From: Rhododendron vialii
Lineage: Eukaryota; Streptophyta; Magnoliopsida; Ericales; Ericaceae
Length of the DNA: 64,000 nucleotides
Reading direction: 5' to 3'
NCBI RefSeq assembly: GCF_030253575.1
Contig: NC_080568.1
Coordinates: 27,791,001-27,855,000 of the forward strand
Part shown: positions 12,683-48,378 of the stretch, in pieces
Layout of the letters: every line of letters begins with the position of its first letter
How positions within the stretch are numbered: the first letter of the stretch is position 1
Notes under the pieces: generated by a model
Seen by the model: the letters and a program-made list of their open reading frames with translations, nothing else
Database searches by the model: none
What the model was told of the DNA's origin: nothing
Program-made: the position numbers and the translations under genes

Positions 12683-15600
12683 TCATGTAATTTTCTTCTC
12701 TTTTGCCTCCTTCCATTCTTTGATGTCAGCATCTATCTTTGCTTTCACAGTCACATCAAACCCTGGATATGGTTCATAGCCAAACAACCATTGAAGAGCC
12801 TGCAATGACCAAACATTGACAGTAAATCCAATTTAATCAAGGTTTAGCTTGGACGGCCATTGCTTTAGTTCTTGATTTGCTTTTTCACTTCGTCACAAGA
12901 ATAATAGTAACTTACTTCGAATAATACAAAGAAAGGTGCCATCAAGAAGGCTTGGGCGAGGTTGTCCAGGAGAGCAGGCGCTCGTTTCTACGCAAAAACA
13001 AGTCAAGAAAATAAAATAAAAACATTTACTGAATGACAGGAATGAGGCAATGAATAATACGATGCAAATTATAGACCAAGTTACCTCAAATACACCATGG
13101 CCTATGAACTGTCCAGTCCAACAGAACAACTGAGCTGCAAGAACAACCTGAACATATTTGGTGAAGCACAACAAAGATTAGAACAAAAAATGGTATAAAA
13201 ATCAATGAACATGGGTCACAATGGGGAAACCAATAAAGACTATAGATTTGAGATAGATGAATAACAATAAACTCCACTAAATCAAAGTGTCGGAAGAGGA
13301 ATGCATATTCTGTTTACGTGAGGGATTAACTAGCCAATGACAAAGGTCTATCCACATGATAGATGTGTAAAACTTTCTGAAAGTGCATTTTTTCAGAAAC
13401 CTTGTGCTTATTGTGAAGTGGAAGAAGACTCGTTGGCCAATATTTTCCATAATGCTGACTGAAAAGGTTTGGAAGTAGCCTTGGCAGTTTCAGCATGCCT
13501 ATTTCAAGTCTTTGACTTTTAAGTGTTGGTTAAAAAGTCTTCTAACACATATTGCCAGCCTTACATGATTAGAAGATTACATGTGATTTCCCTTTATAGA
13601 AGGCTTTTCAGCAATCCAACGGCGAGTCTTAGGCTAGGTTCTGGAGTTGCAAATCGGAGTGTGGTAGGATTTTGAGCCCATCAAATAATACTTAACTTTG
13701 GGTGGCCTTAGGATTTCCAAGCGTGCGTAATTCAGAAAGTTTACTCAGCCATATAGAACCTAAAAGCTAAATATAATTCTTTCGATTCTGCTATTCCTTC
13801 ATGCCACGGTGCACAGTCCATTGAAAATTTTCAAACCTTGTCCAGCAACATAACATTTTTAGATCTAGAAAATGAACTATGATGGCACTAACCAAAAACA
13901 AAACATCATTTGATACCAATTTGAGGCAAGCTATGAAGCAATGGGTACGAATATGGGTACACAATACGAACACAGTGATAAGTGGGTATGGCTGGGATAC
14001 ATCAATGACAATATATATTTTGTAGTGCAAATTTCTATAAGATTATAAACAAGATAACTACATAAAGTCCTTCAACAAAGAGCACGTCGAATTTTTTTAG
14101 CTGAAAAGAATCACCCCAAAAATGTTCAAAATTCTCAAAAAAATGCACCATGTTGCCACATAGAATGGCCAGCTGGAAATGAGGCTACCTTCACTATTCC
14201 CCCAACTGGCCAAAATAGATAAAAAGAAAAAAAAAAACTTAAAAATGACCCTTCACCTCATGTGCCTTCGTAACGTTTACCCATACATGCATTCTTTTGT
14301 GTAACAACACAACACAAACCAAGTCCTTCACTCCTTCCTACACCTGGCAGTCGAGGTCATTACAACGACCTTCACAGTGCTGGCCAATACTATCGCAAAT
14401 ACATATTGGATGAATAAGCGGAAACACAATATAGCTATTTTACATGTAATAGAGGACTATGTATATATAGTGTATACTTAATTTGTATCTGATATTGCAA
14501 ACTAGTTAATTTTTTAAATGTATAATACCAACTCCATATGGCACAACGAAATCTTAAAATCCCAGACACTTGTTTTCGGCTACAACCACATCCAATGTCT
14601 AAACCAACTAACCATTGGCAAGATGATGCAAAACCATTGATCAGCACCATGGTCCAGATTCCAGAACCATAAATACACCTCATCCTCAAGTCAAAGACCA
14701 AAAATTGAAAACTAAACGTATTGAAAAGAGCACAAGAAGAAGACCAACTTAAAGCAAAGATAAATATTTGTATCTCATTCATGACATACAAAAGCTCTTA
14801 TTCCAAGTATATGAATCAATGGAGGAACTTCTCAACCCATTTTTTATACTCTACAACAACTGTAAGGCTCCACTTTGATAGTTACAGATATCAAATGAAG
14901 GGCTTTGATAGCTTAATTTTCAGGTTTGATAGCTTACAGACGGATTTCAACATAGCGTTGGTGAGTTATATTCAGATGGATTTCAATGTGTCTCGTTCAA
15001 TTCTAATCCACCTTCTCACAAACCACAATAATTAGTCTTCATATGCTTTTTGCAAACAAAATTGAATATCAAATCCTAACTAAAGAAAATTGAAAGTCAG
15101 GGCGGCTGCAAACCAAATACCTTGGAATTTTCCTTTTCTATGCATAAGTAGCAGGTAATACCATTTTATCAGGTATTCAGCTCTCTGTTTAAGAATTTTT
15201 TTTTTATAAATAGTAAGTGTTCTAAAAGTCAGCCGCCTAGGCCGACTAGTCCACGCCTAGGAAATTGGCGGTGCAGCCGACTAGTCGGCGCCTAGGCGTC
15301 CCTTTTCTGTCCGACTAGCACTACTGATTTTTAGAACAATAGCTGAGAGGAACCCCCACATGTAATAAACAAAAGGAAAAATTCGAAGAAAGGAAAGGAG
15401 TCAATAAGAACGTAGATACCTACAAATAACCAGAACAAATTCAAAGCAAAGATAAATCGATAACAAAAAATTTTTTACCTTCCAAGCCAGAGAGAACTCA
15501 AGATTCTTAGCAAGAAGACTAGCAGAAACCCAACAGGTCAAACATAGAACAGCAGCCAAAGACCCAGCTTTCTTATCCATTAATACATAAAACAAAGCAT

Positions 15601-15817
15601 AGATCAAAGTGAACAAAAGCCCAAAATTAGGGACAAGGCCAAAACGACACTGAAATGGGCATTCAAAGAAAGCAGGCGTGAAATAGAAGAGAATAAGAGC
15701 CGTGAAGAACAGTGGCCAAACAAACAGCATGTGTATGATTATGTTAACTGGGTTGCTGTGGTATGCCCCGTAGAAGGCGAAGTGCTTCTCGAGATCGAAT
15801 AATCCGATCTTTCCCAT
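12683..15817 (-). CDS. MPO1-like (DUF962) ER dioxygenase, copy A
   Basis: Four exons on the minus strand: 15479-15817, 13085-13147, 12916-12987 and 12683-12799, giving 196 residues with clean GT-AG introns. The start is the ATG at 15817 (MGKIGLFDLEKHFAFYGAYH), the common start of the family, although the frame stays open upstream. Histidines His12, His20, His29 and His130 (GQFIGHGVFE) are present, and several hydrophobic segments suggest a multi-pass ER membrane protein. Family knowledge: yeast Mpo1 is an Fe(II)-dependent dioxygenase that shortens 2-hydroxy fatty acids from phytosphingosine; the plant role is inferred. A paralogue with identical intron positions lies at 27328-28924. The stop region has a short duplication (CATGTAATTTTCTTCTC twice) that sets the C-terminus KKIT. 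Intron 1 is 2.3 kb. Confidence 0.9.
15225..15320. repeat. cluster of CCTAGG / ACTAGT palindromes
   Basis: Within about 95 bp the palindromes CCTAGG and ACTAGT recur in alternation (GCCTAGGCCGACTAGTC, then CCGACTAGTCGGCGCCTAGG). It lies on the antisense side of MPO1-like copy A, near the exon 1 end of intron 1. It resembles a dispersed plant repeat with this vocabulary, but I cannot name the family or its ends. Confidence 0.5.
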
Positions 15818-16770
15818 TGGGAATTTTTCTCGGGAGAGAAAATGATGGGTTTGGGGGGAGGGTGGTTTTGGAAAGGAAGGTTTTTTTTTTTTTTTTTTTG
15901 ATTCGATTTTGGAAAGGAAGGTTGAGGAGAAAGAAAAAGAGATTGCTGGGTATTTGAAGCAAATATGCGACAACAGAATAATCAAAAACCGCGGATTAAA
16001 AAAACAAAAAGAAAAAGAAAAATCAAAAACCAGGGCCTAGTCCGTCGATTGAGATTTGTTCCGTCTATTGGGATTTGTTTACTTTCCTTGCCGATATCGG
16101 CAATGGGAAGATAGATTATCCCACGTGTGGGGTTTACACATTTAGAATGGAATCCACACGTTTTTTGTGAGAAGAAGGAACATTGCTTGTAAAGCACAAA
16201 ATAATTCTTCAAATGGAAAATGATTATTCAATGGTCTTCGGGTATCCCATCATTTTTCACCATACAATTTTTTAGAGTTCATACATATATCTCTTAAGTA
16301 TTGGGTATCTATATTATATACTAAGCAAATATAATTTTAAAAAATAAAATTAAGTTCTCTTCTTAATTCTCTCTCCTATGTGGTAATTCCTTAATAAAAT
16401 TCGTCTTTTCCTTCTTCTTTTTTTCTCTAGACTTTTCAAAATACCAAAAATTTAAATAAATAAAAAGAAAAAACTTGCAAACTTCCTTCCATGATGCTCA
16501 TACATTTTTTCATTAAAAGTTTTATATCTAATGTTAAATCATAAATAATGAGAGATAAATAACACAACAAGACTTTACATGTACTTATAAATAACATTGT
16601 TACATTAAACATAAAAATAATTTTGTACATGTTCTCATGCACAGCACTGATAAGACGCTTGTTCCAGTATGCATATAAGTATTTGATTTTTCGGAAATGA
16701 TTCCCACACAGATTTTTGTGCACATATCATGCACAAACATTTTTAAAAAATTCTAATAGCAATAACGATT

Positions 16771-27327: not shown

Positions 27328-28924
27328 TTACCAAATTTTCTTCTCTTTCTTCTCCTGCAATTTTTTGATTTCGGCATCTCTCTTAGCTTTCACAGTTGCA
27401 TCAAACCCTGGATATGGTTCGTAGCCGAAAACCAGTTGAAGAGCCTGCAAACGAAAGCAAATAATCCGATTAAATCGATATATAGCTCAGATGGTCATTT
27501 CATTATTGCGGTTCTCAATTTTTTTTAAAACTTTGAGAGACAAATTACACAAACTTACTTCAAGTAATACATAGAATGGTTCCATCAGAAAAGTTTGGGT
27601 TAGGTTCTCCGGCAGAGCCGCCACTCGTTTCTACACCAAAAAAAAAAAAAAAACAAACTAATGAGTTTTACCGTCTGACAGAAACTTTGAAGCAGTAATA
27701 TTCCGAAGTAAAACAAAAACTTTGAAGCAGTGCAAATTATAGCAAGTCACCTCAAATACACCATGGCCTATGAACTGGCCGGTCCAACAGAACAACTGAG
27801 CTGCCACAACCACCTGAATGATAGTAGATAAGAAAAATCAACCGGGTATTGATTCTTGTAGATGTAATAACAAATAAAACTCGTGACTCGTGTCAATGTT
27901 TTAGGTTAAAATATAGACAGTATTATAGTACGTTTTTTTTGGGACTTCAGGTTAATGCTGTGTAGTGGTGTGAACAACATCGTATTGCGCACCTCCGAGC
28001 CGTCGGATCGTGCATCCGACGAATCGGATCTCATCTCGGCAACCAACGATTGAGAGCCATTCGTTGCCGAGATGAGATTCGAGCCGTCGGATGCACAATC
28101 CAACGGCTCGGAGGTACGCAACACGGTGCTGCGCACACCACTCCACAGCACCATCTCCCAATTCCTTTGGGAACTTGGGGAAAAGAAAGGCACGAAAAAG
28201 AAACGAAATTTTTTTTGTTTTGTTCCCTACTTCCTCTCAAACCAAACAATGGAAAATAATTTTCCCTCCCTCTCTTTTCTTTTCCCCAGGTTCCAAACAA
28301 CTCCTAAAGCCAAATGTAGTTTTGGAAGTCATGTTTTATCTTCTTTTTTTTACACCTTTCAAAACATCTCATCAAGTGAATTTTGAGATTTTTATGAATG
28401 CCCTCTCAATTGGAGAGGAACCCAACATGTAGTAATTCAGTAAAATAAAGCAAAAATAAAAATAAAAAATTGAATGCACAAAATCATAGATACCTACCTA
28501 CAAACCAAACCCCAGAATAAATCCATGACAAAACAAATACTCCTATTACTTGCAGATGAAAAGAAGAGATCACCTTCAAAGCCAGAGGAAAGCCAAGATG
28601 TTTGGCAACAAGACTAGCAGAGACCCAACAGGCCAAGCAGAGAATCGCAGCCAGAGGACCAGCTTTCTTATCCATGAAGGCGTAAACCGAAGCATAGATC
28701 AAAGAGACGAGAAACCCATAATTGGGAACGAGGCCGAGAGGAAACTGATCAAATGGGGATTCAAAGAAGAAAGCAGGTGTGAAATAGAGGAGAATGAGAG
28801 TCGTGAAGAAGATTGGCCAAACGAACAACATGTGTATGAGGCTGTTCACTGGGTTGCTGTGGTATGCGCCGTGGAAGGCGAAGTGTTTCTCGAGATCGAA
28901 TAACTCCATCTTTCTTCTTCCCAT
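27328..28924 (-). CDS. MPO1-like (DUF962) ER dioxygenase, copy B
   Basis: Four exons: 28574-28924, 27751-27813, 27559-27630 and 27328-27444, giving 200 residues. Exons 2, 3 and 4 have the same lengths (63, 72, 117 bp) and phases as copy A, which proves paralogy. The start is ATG 28924 (MGRRKMELFDLEKHF); a second ATG five codons on is possible. The family histidines in EKHFAFHGAYH, SLIHMLFVWP and GQFIGHGVFE are kept, and by eye about three quarters of the residues match copy A. The predicted role is as for copy A. Intron 1 carries a 195-bp inverted repeat, and a MITE with two CACGTG motifs sits about 140 bp before the start codon, so the copies may be regulated differently. Confidence 0.9.
27956..28150. 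repeat. long inverted repeat in intron 1 of MPO1-like copy B
   Basis: The left arm (TGCTGTGTAGTGGTGTG, then CCTCCGAGCCGTCGGAT, then GATCTCATCTCGGCAACCA) is mirrored almost completely on the right, ending CACACCACTCCACAGCA. The arms are about 90 bp with a short centre near 28050. It is probably a MITE; no target duplication was found. Confidence 0.8.
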
Positions 28925-30249
28925 TTGGGAGGAGTTTTCTCGGGAATTTGGGGGTGGAAAGTGAGGACTGAGGATAAGCAAAGGGATTGATTGTTGGGGT
29001 TATCAAGGTTAGAAAATACTGTACCTAAAACAAGGGCTGGTCCTCGATTTGAGGAGAGATTTTTAAGTGCCGAGCGAGTATATCCCACGTGATATCCGTT
29101 TAGCGCATTCGAGCCGTCCGATGCATTTTTGGACGGCTCAAATTGAAACCCTCTCTTTCTTCTCACCCCAACACTTTCTCTCTCATTTTATCTCTCCAAA
29201 TCTGAGCAGTTCAAAAATAAAATGGACGGCTCAGATACTCGAGCGGACACCACGTGGTATACCCTCGGCACTGAAATTTCTTTTCAGATTTGAGAGGGGA
29301 CTACTAGAGTAATTTGTTTTTTTTCTTTTTCTTTTTTTGGATCTGGGGACTACTAGTATGGGTCATCCGAACTTTTTCTTTGATATTTTCAAAAATAAAT
29401 GTTTAAATGTTATAGTTAATATTTTACTTTTGTTTATTTCTCTTGTCGAGACGAGCCGATAATATATATAAAAGTTTGGTATAAAATTGACAAACGCAAA
29501 AAGAAAAAAGGAAAAAAAAAAAAGGAAAAAAAAAATTGTCCACAACTTTTAGGTTTGTGAAAACACACCCTGATTGGACAAAATTGTCCACGTGTTTGGA
29601 AAAAAACAACCCAGGTATTCTATTGTGAATTGTCTATGAAAAAGAAAAGGGATCCCGATTTCCAATTCAGCCTTTCGTGCTTCCTTTTTTGGCCCATTTT
29701 GATGCTCGAAATGCTCATCTTTAGAACTCCATCGACAACATTTGTTGCCAAAAATCGTATTTTGAGCGAATATCATTTCATTGCATGACTCACGGCATGT
29801 CAAGATAAGGGATGGCCCAGGCATTGCTCAGGGCATGCCAAGGCATGGCTCACAGCAAAGCCTTTACAAGGGTTGGCCAAAGTTGTGGGTAAGTTGCTAG
29901 GTAACGCTGGGTAACAATTACCAAGTTGCTTGGTAACGACTGGTAGCCAAGGCATGACAAGCCGATTGCTTGTCATCGAGCAAGGCAAGGCATGACATGA
30001 CTCTACCGACCACCAAGCAAAAAACTAGATTTCATCTTTTTGGCAACTAATTAATGTTTGATGATTTGTAAAAGATGAATGATTCAAATCATTAAAGTGA
30101 GCCTCGAAAGAGCCCCCAATATGCCCAACAGGCCACCAATACTGGCTTTTGTTATTAGAAAGGATCCTAACCCTTTTAAAGAAGAGAACTTACAACAATT
30201 TCTACATGCATACGTAAGTACATATGATATAATAGATAGTGTCCGTTTA
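28925..30249. other. intergenic, MPO1-like copy B to FAR1-type pseudogene
   Basis: It holds the MPO1-like copy B promoter with its MITE (29062-29278) and A/T-rich tracts near 29500. From 29760 to 30000 there are imperfect repeats of GGCATG-type words and GTTGCTAGGTAAC / GTTGCTTGGTAAC. No host gene seen. Confidence 0.5.
29062..29278. mobile_element. MITE with TTTAAGTGCCGAG ends and two G-boxes (copy B)
   Basis: Left end TTTTAAGTGCCGAGCG and right end CCTCGGCACTGAAATTTC are inverted, like copy A at 7541-7776. Each arm here contains CACGTG (29086-29091 and 29251-29256). It lies directly upstream of MPO1-like copy B. Confidence 0.65.
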
Positions 30250-36438: not shown

Positions 36439-38429
36439 ATGGCTTGTTCGTTCAAAACCGGTCCAACCCTTTCTGGGTCCCATGACACAATTCTTGGGTC
36501 CAAACACAAAGGGGTTTCTCCACCACCTCCCCCCTCCATAGGCTTCCTCCAACTCAAACAATCAAATCCACCAAATTGTTCCACTCTGGTATGTACTTCC
36601 GAAAGATCTCTAACTTTATTTTCTTGTTTCTTGATTAATTTTTTTTTTTTTCATTTTGAACTGACATTTTGGCGATTTACTATTTCAGGCACAATCCGTG
36701 GGGACTGCGAAATACCCAACACCACAACCATCACTGTGTGTGAGCAGATCTCTGCGTTGGTGGGAGAAAACACTTCAACCCAACATGGTAGAGATCCGTT
36801 CAGCACAAGAATTTGTTGATTCGTTGTTATTAGCCGGTGACAGATTGGTCATAGTTGACTTTTATTCCCCTGGTTGTGGTGGTTGCAAATCTCTGCATCC
36901 CAAGGTATATCTATAGATATTTCTGCTGTAGATCTTCACTAATGAATAAGTTTTGAGGAAAAAAATTGTAGCAACCAAGTTGTTTGGTGTTTCCGGTAGT
37001 AAATAAGTTTTTGAGAAATGTCAAAAGTTGTTTTTTCCGGTGGTGAATAAGTTGCAGATGAGTTTGTTAGTAGAGTTACCGAAGCGAAACAAGTTTTTGC
37101 TTTTTTGTCAGTGTGAAAGAGATGATAGAATGCTGAAACTTGTTTATTAGTATGAACGTGACGTTTTTTCCCCCTTTTTTTCTAGTGGAAACACCCTTAG
37201 AACTCCCTGGTTTTTATATGGTTCCCAATTGGATAGTGGAGTCCATCCGCGGCTCATATGAGTTTCACTATGCATCAATAGAGTACAAATTACATCTGCT
37301 GCTACGTATAGCATATGTAGATATATCTTGGGGGGTTTTTGTCACCAATTACCATGATACCCTTATTTGAAAACCTGTCATAGTTTAGAGAAGTGATTAA
37401 TCAAACAAAAATCAGGCTTCACGAACGCAACCTTTTTCTGTTGACTTATTCAGTTCCGGTTTAACTATTTCTAATGTAAGCACATTGTGTTGACTATCCA
37501 TTGACACATTCTTTTTCGAAAATATCCTGATCTATGTCTCTCTCTCTCTCTCTTTCTCGTTTCAGATCTGTCAATTGGCTGAATCGAACGAAAATGCAAT
37601 TATTCTCAAAGTCAATTATGAACAGCTGAAGAAAATGTGCCATTGTCTCCACATACATGTCCTGCCCTTCTTCAGATTCTACAGAGGGGCTGAGGGCAGG
37701 TTGTGCAGCTTCAGCTGCACCAATGCAACTGTAAGTATTTTGTCGATTCTCTATCTCACACGCGCTATGAAAGCTGTATTGTATATATATGTGTTGCCTT
37801 GCGCTGATTCAAATTCAATCCGAATGATTATAATCCACTTGCGAGTTGCGACATGCCATACACCATTCATTCGAATCTGATTTCTTATTGGTGGGTATTT
37901 AAACCCGATACACTATGACTAACATTCGGCAGAGACTACATTTTAAGGGGTCTATACATTAAGCCTAACGCGAATGTAACAACAGGGTTTTCGGGGTCTA
38001 GGGTTTCATCTGATAGAGCTACTAATATTGCCGACTTATTGTATTCTCATCTTAAATAACGAAATCCATATCCAAAAATCTTCGTCAGTGGTCATATGCT
38101 GTAAGACAAATCACCCGAATCCTCCAAGTTTCTGTATTAGTTTAGCCTCTATAACTTGTAATTTTTGTTTTCTTAAACAGATCAAGAAGTTCAAAGATGC
38201 ATTGGCAAAGCACGGGACCGCTAGGTGTGATCTCGGCCCGGCCAAAGGACTGGATGAATCTGAGCTATTGAGTTTAGCCTCAATTGGGGAGATATCTTTC
38301 AACTTGCCATTACCATCCACCGGGAAGGATATCATGCAAGATCTAGTCTTAAAAAACACAGATTTGTCTGGTGGTTTTGGCATATCAGGAAATAGCATTA
38401 TGGGAATTGAGGAAGAGGTTTTGGCTTGA
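36439..38429 (+). CDS. ACHT4-like atypical plastid thioredoxin
   Basis: Four exons: 36439-36588, 36689-36904, 37566-37730 and 38181-38429, giving 259 residues; all introns are GT-AG. Residues 1 to about 75 look like a plastid transit peptide (Ser/Pro-rich, few acidic residues). The thioredoxin fold begins at WWEKTLQPNMVEIRSAQEFV and carries the atypical redox site C113-G-G-C116 (SPGCGGCKSLHPK). It is followed by the family phrase HVLPFFRFYRGAEGRLCSFS. This pattern is that of the Atypical Cys/His-rich thioredoxins, closest to ACHT4/ACHT5. Family knowledge: ACHT proteins oxidise plastid targets such as 2-Cys peroxiredoxin partners and AGPase. The C-terminal tail (from about 195) differs from the Arabidopsis protein. 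No close neighbour suggests a shared unit. Confidence 0.93.
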
Positions 38430-44396: not shown

Positions 44397-44434
44397 TATA
44401 TATACGTCAACTCCAAGTTCATAAGTTAGGGTTT
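44397..44434 (+). promoter_or_regulatory. putative promoter of the snoRNA cluster: TATA box and telo-box
   Basis: TATATATA at 44397-44404 is followed about 25 bp on by AGTTAGGGTTTC (telo-box AGGGTTT, 44428-44434). Telo-boxes are common in plant promoters of snoRNA and ribosomal-protein genes. The first snoRNA begins about 160 bp downstream. No coding frame follows, so a non-coding precursor is inferred. Confidence 0.55.
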
Positions 44435-44593
44435 CTTCGTCTCTGTGAGGTGCTTTCTAAGTTCTAATTACTCGTGCTCGTGATTTGTTTTGGTTTTCTC
44501 AGTGATTTTCTTGGGAAAAGATCATTCTTTTCAGTTTCCACAGTAATTACGTTTTGATTGTTTGCTATACTTTCGATTTACTTCGTATTTGAT

Positions 44594-44676
44594 GGCAGAT
44601 GATGAAAAGATCATTATATATTTGGGCTGATCTATAACCATGAGGCTCCAAAATCGAGCTTTTTAAAACTGATGCC
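44594..44676 (+). ncRNA. C/D-box snoRNA, 18S guide (U36/snR47-like)
   Basis: Terminal stem GGCA / TGCC; C box ATGATGA (44599-44605); D' box CTGA (44627-44630); D box CTGA (44669-44672). The guide before the D box, CGAGCTTTTTAA, is complementary over 12 nt to the 18S segment TTAAAAAGCTCG as I recall it. The fifth base upstream of the D box points to the first A of the A run in GTTAAAAAGC, the site class served by U36 in animals and snR47 in yeast. The name is tentative; the box structure is seen directly. Read as 83 nt. Confidence 0.8.
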
Positions 44677-44987
44677 CCCTCTCGCCTGAGAAAAGAAAAA
44701 CTTCGTTGTATTTGATTGTGGGATTTGCTTGCACTCGTGCTCTGTGTTGATTGCTATGAGATGAAACCAATTAAAGCCTCTCTCTCTCTCTCTCTCGATG
44801 TCTCTTGGAGACTATCAGGGAAAGCAGACTTGCTTGATAATTAAATTTTTGCTTATTGGGTGTTATATCACTGAAATTAATTCGGATTTATCATGTGAAA
44901 ATTGGGTTTTGAGTCATAGACTTTGTTCCCGTTTTGGTTAATCATAATGGGTTTTAGTAGCAAGGTTAAAGATTGTATTTTGATGAT

Positions 44988-45071
44988 TTGCAAGTGATGA
45001 TAAAACAGACAGGGACATCAGATCTCCATTGGAGGAAGATGACTTAGTCTTTGGGAATCTCTCTGATGCAA
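44988..45071 (+). ncRNA. C/D-box snoRNA, 25S double guide (copy 1)
   Basis: Terminal stem TTGCA / TGCAA; C box GTGATGA (44994-45000); C'-like GATGACT (45038-45044); D box CTGA (45063-45066). Two guide stretches, AGACAGGGACA and TGGGAATCTC, are complementary to the adjacent 25S segments TGTCCCTGTCT and GAGATTCCCA, as I remember the 25S sequence. A close relative lies at 45549-45637 with the same guides. Read as 84 nt. Confidence 0.82.
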
Positions 45072-45144
45072 TTTGTTTAAACAAGAATATTTTCATGCTG
45101 TGATTTTAATGTCCGTTTGATTTTAGACTTGTGTGTATGACTTA

Positions 45145-45312
45145 GGCCCTTTGGATTGTGAGAAAAAAGATCAATCTTTACCGTAAAGATTGATCTTTTT
45201 CCCTTACTTCCCGGCCTATCTCGTCGTTTGACTCGTTTCTCTTTTAGTTATCAAAAATTAGTTACATTTCTCTTCTTTTCTTTTCCCATTATTTTTCACC
45301 ATCGGAAAGGGC
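45145..45312. mobile_element. Tourist-like MITE inside the snoRNA cluster
   Basis: Left end GGCCCTTTGGATTG, right end ATCGGAAAGGGC, with TTA on both sides (45142-45144 and 45313-45315). It contains an 18-bp perfect hairpin stem with a one-base loop at 45164-45200 (AAAAAGATCAATCTTTAC and its inverse). Confidence 0.65.
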
Positions 45313-45329
45313 TTAGTTTTCTTACTTGT

Positions 45330-45400
45330 GTGCCAATGATGGGTTTAAATATACTACGAGTGCCTAGTGCCTACAATGAACACAACTTACTCTGAGGCAC
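45330..45400 (+). ncRNA. possible C/D-box snoRNA, target unknown
   Basis: Stem GTGCC / GGCAC, C box-like AATGATG (45335-45341), D box CTGA (45392-45395); 71 nt. It shares the GCCAATGATG...CTGAGGC frame with the snoRNA at 45870. The guide before the D box (CACAACTTACT) matches no rRNA that I can recall; an internal ACTACGAG is complementary to 18S CTCGTAGT over only 8 nt. Confidence 0.5.
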
Positions 45401-45548
45401 TTGGAAAATATGTTGATAAGAATCACAAGGTGACTTATGATTACATGGATTAAACCCATTTTCCAACTCTCCGAATCAATTACTTGCAAAATGATTTCTC
45501 GGTCATAGCGAACTGTAATTTTGTAGCATTTTTATTTTTTTGACAAAT

Positions 45549-45637
45549 TTGTGCAAGTGACGATAAACAGACAGGGACATCAGCACTCCGGTATTGGAGT
45601 ATGATGAGTTGTCTTTGGGAATCTCTCTGATGCACAA
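45549..45637 (+). ncRNA. C/D-box snoRNA, 25S double guide (copy 2)
   Basis: A 7-bp terminal stem TTGTGCA / TGCACAA, C box GTGACGA (45557-45563), C' box TGATGAG (45602-45608) and D box CTGA (45627-45630). Both guide stretches of copy 1 are kept exactly, while the spacer between them differs, as expected of functional paralogues. Read as 89 nt. Confidence 0.85.
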
Positions 45638-45869
45638 AACTGTCATATTTTGCAGATTTTTTGAGTTTCGTATCCATTTGGTTCCTTCTTTTCTTACCGT
45701 TAGGAGCTCTAAAATGTAGTGTGTTTTTAGTGTCTTGGTGCCATTTTAGCTGAATTGATTTTGAACCCATTTTGTTGGAATGTTGCACATGTACACTAGG
45801 TTGGGCAATTCATGCTTGCCGGCTATATTTTTCTTAACATGGATGCATTACCAAATGCCATGTCTCGGT

Positions 45870-45951
45870 TTTTGCCAATGATGCATTTCTATTCACGTAT
45901 TACCAGACTACTTGATGATGATTTGTGATTGTCACTACCTCTGAGGCAAAA
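45870..45951 (+). ncRNA. C/D-box snoRNA, 18S double guide
   Basis: A 7-bp terminal stem TTTTGCC / GGCAAAA, C box AATGATG (45877-45883), C' box TTGATGATG (45912-45920) and D box CTGA (45941-45944). The guide before the D box, ATTGTCACTACCT, is complementary over 13 nt to the 18S segment AGGTAGTGACAAT as I recall it. A second stretch, CACGTATTA, is complementary over 9 nt to 18S TAATACGTG. Read as 82 nt. I leave it unnamed, since several known snoRNAs guide near this place. Confidence 0.85.
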
Positions 45952-48060: not shown

Positions 48061-48378
48061 AAATGTGCCAAGCCTCTTTTCAACTGGTACGCAGTCTTGC
48101 AGCTTGATCGGCGCTCCGACGACCCTGATCTCATCAAGAAGCAGTACTGCTGCCTCGCTCTCCTCCCCCCTGACAAGAACAAATTCCCCTTCGCTGACGC
48201 CACAATCCACCTCGTCGCCGATTCCTGGGTGGTTTTATTCGACCGGCGAAGGAAATCCCTCTACAGCAATGAGCTCAGCATGTTCGGAAAAGTCAATCTC
48301 GTTGGCTTGAGGAGCGACGGGATGGGGGGCAGCGACGGGATGGGGGGCAGCAGAAGGTCGGTGAGAGGTGAGATGTGA
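48061..48378 (+). pseudogene. DnaJ J-domain fragment with lost HPD motif
   Basis: From 48085 the frame reads WYAVLQLDRRSDDPDLIKKQ, then YCCLALLPPDKNKFPFADAT, then HLVADSWVVLFDRRRKSLYS, the J domain of a plant DnaJ-like protein. The catalytic HPD tripeptide is PPD here, so Hsp70 stimulation should be lost. No ATG precedes the domain in frame (TAG at 48058-48060), and after about 48306 the frame enters an 18-bp tandem duplication (GACGGGATGGGGGGCAGC twice) and ends at 48378. It is a truncated gene copy. A short living gene is unlikely but not excluded. Confidence 0.75.

Follow-up and report, generated by a model that had tools for sequence, protein, structure and literature searches.

What does the stretch at 44397..45951 of the Rhododendron vialii DNA analyzed here (contig NC_080568.1; the whole 64,000-nucleotide stretch is called the window) encode? 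The best explanation, in which we have high confidence, is an ordinary plant cluster of C/D-box small nucleolar RNA (snoRNA) genes, a further instance of an established type. An earlier reading made from the letters alone (the sequence-only reading) had proposed an intergenic C/D snoRNA cluster at this place, and the proposal was borne out by Rfam models, by a paralogous cluster with a similar front end on C8, by guide complementarity, and by the known organization of plant snoRNA clusters. As that reading also stated, annotation based on open reading frames (ORFs) leaves the region empty, yet four of its five genes are picked up at once when Rfam models are run over it as a matter of routine. 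Positions and predicted methylation targets are given below for these five snoRNA genes overlooked by ORF-based annotation.

Evidence for Five C/D snoRNA Genes

The sequence-only reading had named five candidates on one strand, together with a C/D-type scan and Rfam models as the means to check them. Our model-free scan required a C box (one mismatch tolerated), a CTGA 45-130 nt further on, and a perfect closing stem of at least 4 bp. It found six places on the + strand of the window, five of which are the candidates in the cluster, and none on the − strand. With a stem of at least 5 bp, four places were found in the window, all within the cluster. In simulations at this stem length, 40 first-order sequences of 64 kb averaged 0.075 matches on one strand (maximum one), and 2,000 sequences of 1,555 bp averaged 0.0075 (maximum one). 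All five snoRNAs have a C box matching RTGATGA with zero or one mismatch, a CTGA D box, and a stretch of roughly 10 bp or longer that can pair with ribosomal RNA (rRNA) just upstream of box D or D′. Their closing stems measure 4, 5, 5, 8, and 7 bp from the first to the fifth, such that the two longest, first described as perfect stems of 7 bp each, are in fact 8 bp (second snoR44 copy) and 7 bp (snoR122-like). The Rfam matches (RF00357, RF00049, RF00344, and RF02407) span the whole length of each model, and four of the five genes score above the cut-off. The probable role of the five snoRNAs is to direct chemical modification of the ribosome.

Guides and Predicted rRNA Targets

The first gene is SNORD36/U36 (44593..44678, +; RF00049, 46.9 bits, cut-off 30), with its C box at 44599-44605 and D box at 44669-44672. 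Its D guide (44655-44666, +) has a 12-bp match to an algal 18S sequence, and the predicted target is 18S A623 (Arabidopsis numbering; Table 1 of PMC8053127). Two copies of snoR44 (RF00357, snoR44_J54; cut-off 48) are the second and fourth genes. Copy a (44987..45072, +; 85.0 bits) has its C box at 44994-45000, D′ at 45019-45022, and D at 45063-45066; its predicted targets, based in part on Table 1 of PMC8053127, are 25S C2338 for D′ and 25S A2327 for D. Copy b (45550..45636, +; 77.7 bits) has the C box GTGACGA at 45557-45563, D′ (CAGC) at 45581-45584, and D at 45627-45630.

Between them lies the third gene, a snoZ267 candidate (45327..45403, +) that scores 40.0 bits with RF00344 and thus falls narrowly below the gathering cut-off of 43. 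It has two paralogs on C8, and its D′ guide has a 10-bp rRNA match, which is within chance when taken alone. The fifth gene (45873..45948, +; RF02407, 39.3 bits, cut-off 36) is snoR122-like, with D′ at 45904-45907 and D at 45941-45944. Its D′ guide (45894-45902, +) has the predicted target 18S U168, and a second guide upstream of D (45928-45940, +) is directed to 18S A468, the SnoR17 site in Arabidopsis. In Arabidopsis, snoR122 itself is classed as an orphan. The SNORD70 model gave 36.1 bits for this gene, below its cut-off of 50. A whole-genome search with the snoR122 model returned nothing at E 0.001; the much greater size of the genome compared with the window is the presumed reason.

The checks of these guides against rRNA differ in value. 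Eleven 18S contigs of contaminant eukaryotes were retrieved, none of which carries the land-plant motif looked for, and they served as a partial control. The U36 target was matched in all 11, which is worthless as a test since this target was part of the pattern used to fetch them. The D guide of the snoR122-like gene has a 13-14 bp match in seven of the 11 and an 11-bp match in L018, and no match was seen in L015, L016, and L021. None of these 18S contigs offers a usable 25S target for snoR44. A 25S pattern had no match in the genome of the species, and four patterns each had none in the viral contigs. The algal 18S sequence, a Lilium primer, and a Petunia primer were found by searching for the expected target letters; this is a biased test, and it shows that the letters are printed for green plants. 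The Lilium primer is labeled as an expressed sequence tag 'cytochrome P450-like TBP' in its source, and we take it to be 25S rRNA.

miR3630 as a Probable snoR44 Fragment

The miR3630-3p sequence matches both snoR44 copies exactly (45053-45070 and 45617-45634) and corresponds to the 3′ end of the snoRNA (guide, box D, and stem). The miR3630-5p sequence corresponds to the 5′ end (stem and box C); it differs from copy b (45553-45573) by a single mismatch, and to fit it to copy a, one additional base has to be tolerated. In the available excerpts of the sources, mulberry miR3630-3p and -5p are printed with low counts (PMC5770470), and curry-leaf miR3630-3p is given as equivalent to grape vvi-miR3630-3p, with 0 in what appears to be the mismatch column (PMC8747174). 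The excerpt of a grape atlas reports miR3630 in its libraries and its rejection for sub-optimal pairing with the complement, as expected of a C/D snoRNA (PMC4434875). One point counts against this identification: by the same excerpt, reads mapping to snoRNAs had already been removed in that study, and its snoRNA list therefore cannot have included snoR44. In the literature searched, 41 papers mention both miR3630 and snoRNA, we found no text pairing miR3630 with 'snoRNA-derived', and an earlier mention may exist elsewhere.

We consider it likely that the plant 'microRNA' family miR3630 is a mislabeled snoR44 fragment, encoded twice in this cluster, rather than a microRNA, and, as a lesser point, that the fifth gene unites a snoR122/U45 guide (18S U168) and a SnoR17-site guide (18S A468) in one RNA, the copies on C8 sharing only the U168 guide. 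If so, the reported expression changes and targets of miR3630 would concern snoRNA fragments, and plant miR3630 reports deserve checking as snoR44 fragments. The miR3630 reads would in turn back the predicted snoRNA ends.

Promoter, Surroundings, and Alternative Explanations

The sequence-only reading had described the cluster as polycistronic with its own promoter, preceded by a TATA box and a telo-box, and both elements are where it placed them (TATATATA at 44397 and TTAGGGTTT at 44426). The TATA box of the presumed RNA polymerase II promoter occupies 44397..44404 (+), and the telo-box (AAACCCTAA; 44426..44434, −) lies 22 bp downstream of it. Plant polycistronic snoRNA promoters combine a Telo-box and Site II with TATA, and here we found TATA and telo-box only, so that the promoter and the polycistrony are what we infer rather than observe. 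The arrangement agrees only in part with the Telo/Site II promoter described in the available part of PMC4660826, because no Site II lies upstream and the telo-box comes after TATA. The same excerpt describes a rice snoRNA-miRNA locus that lacks a Telo-box.

The nearest frames recognized by Pfam, among 10 open frames tested, are a thioredoxin-like frame ending at 36913 and a DnaJ frame starting at 48061. We therefore regard a separate intergenic gene, driven by a promoter of its own, as likely. The leading alternative, which we consider improbable, is that the snoRNAs belong to a protein gene, as part of an intron or of a long leader. Such a host could be a gene leading to the + strand DnaJ-like exon at 48.1 kb, or a ribosomal-protein gene that escaped detection and would share the telo-box. 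Several points weigh toward it or against a separate gene. The DnaJ frame is on the same + strand, 2.1 kb past the last snoRNA; the frame list omits exons shorter than 70 amino acids, and Pfam covered just 10 of its frames; telo-boxes also mark ribosomal-protein genes, according to the excerpt of PMC4660826; Site II (TGGGCY) is absent from 43700 to the first snoRNA; and a single telo-box is unremarkable, given 13 matches to its seven permutations over the window (overlaps counted). However, in the six frames given to Pfam between 43.3 and 46.8 kb, no match exceeds the cut-off, and the paralogous cluster on C8 has a TATA run followed by a telo-box directly before its snoRNAs.

That the window cluster is a decaying copy whose active genes are the C8 paralogs is very improbable, since both window snoR44 copies keep consensus guides whereas every C8 copy lacks one guide letter, the C8 snoR122-like copies (L008 3798-3892 and L009 2320-2413) keep the D′ guide CACGTATTA but not the A468 D guide, one of them has TTGA instead of CTGA, and SNORD36 was located only in the window by a genome search in which 70 candidates were scored.

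Other features were observed in and around the two clusters. The spacer between the second and third genes contains a 17-bp hairpin (45164..45200, +), and the fold of 45155-45215 has −22.2 kcal/mol and a z of −6.9. A transfer RNA gene (62.5 bits; L008 5893-5963, +) is located about 0.4 kb upstream of the TATA box of the C8 cluster, on the opposite strand. Elsewhere in the window, two similar open frames on the − strand (15401-16036 and 28484-28999) share 'LFDLEKHFAF.GAYHSNPVN' and apparently represent a duplicated membrane-protein gene.

Comparison with Known snoRNA Clusters

The animal counterparts of these snoRNAs are U36, U74 and U79, SNORD70, and U45. U74 and U79 are two RNAs in animals, whereas snoR44 is one, and the chicken counterparts U74 and U79 are intronic, in contrast to the intergenic snoRNAs of the window. 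According to the available part of PMC5122169, plant snoRNAs often lie in conserved clusters; 10 clusters of rice are conserved there in some or all of 24 plants, and cluster 53 of these consists of snoR44-snoR17-snoR147a. As in that cluster, snoR44 is found here together with a snoRNA guiding the SnoR17 site (18S A468). Prunus long noncoding RNAs mapping to snoU36a and snoR44_J54 are described as potential precursors in the excerpt of PMC6371585. Set beside these rice clusters and Prunus transcripts, as far as the excerpts describe them, the Rhododendron cluster therefore takes its place as one more member of a familiar class of plant snoRNA loci.
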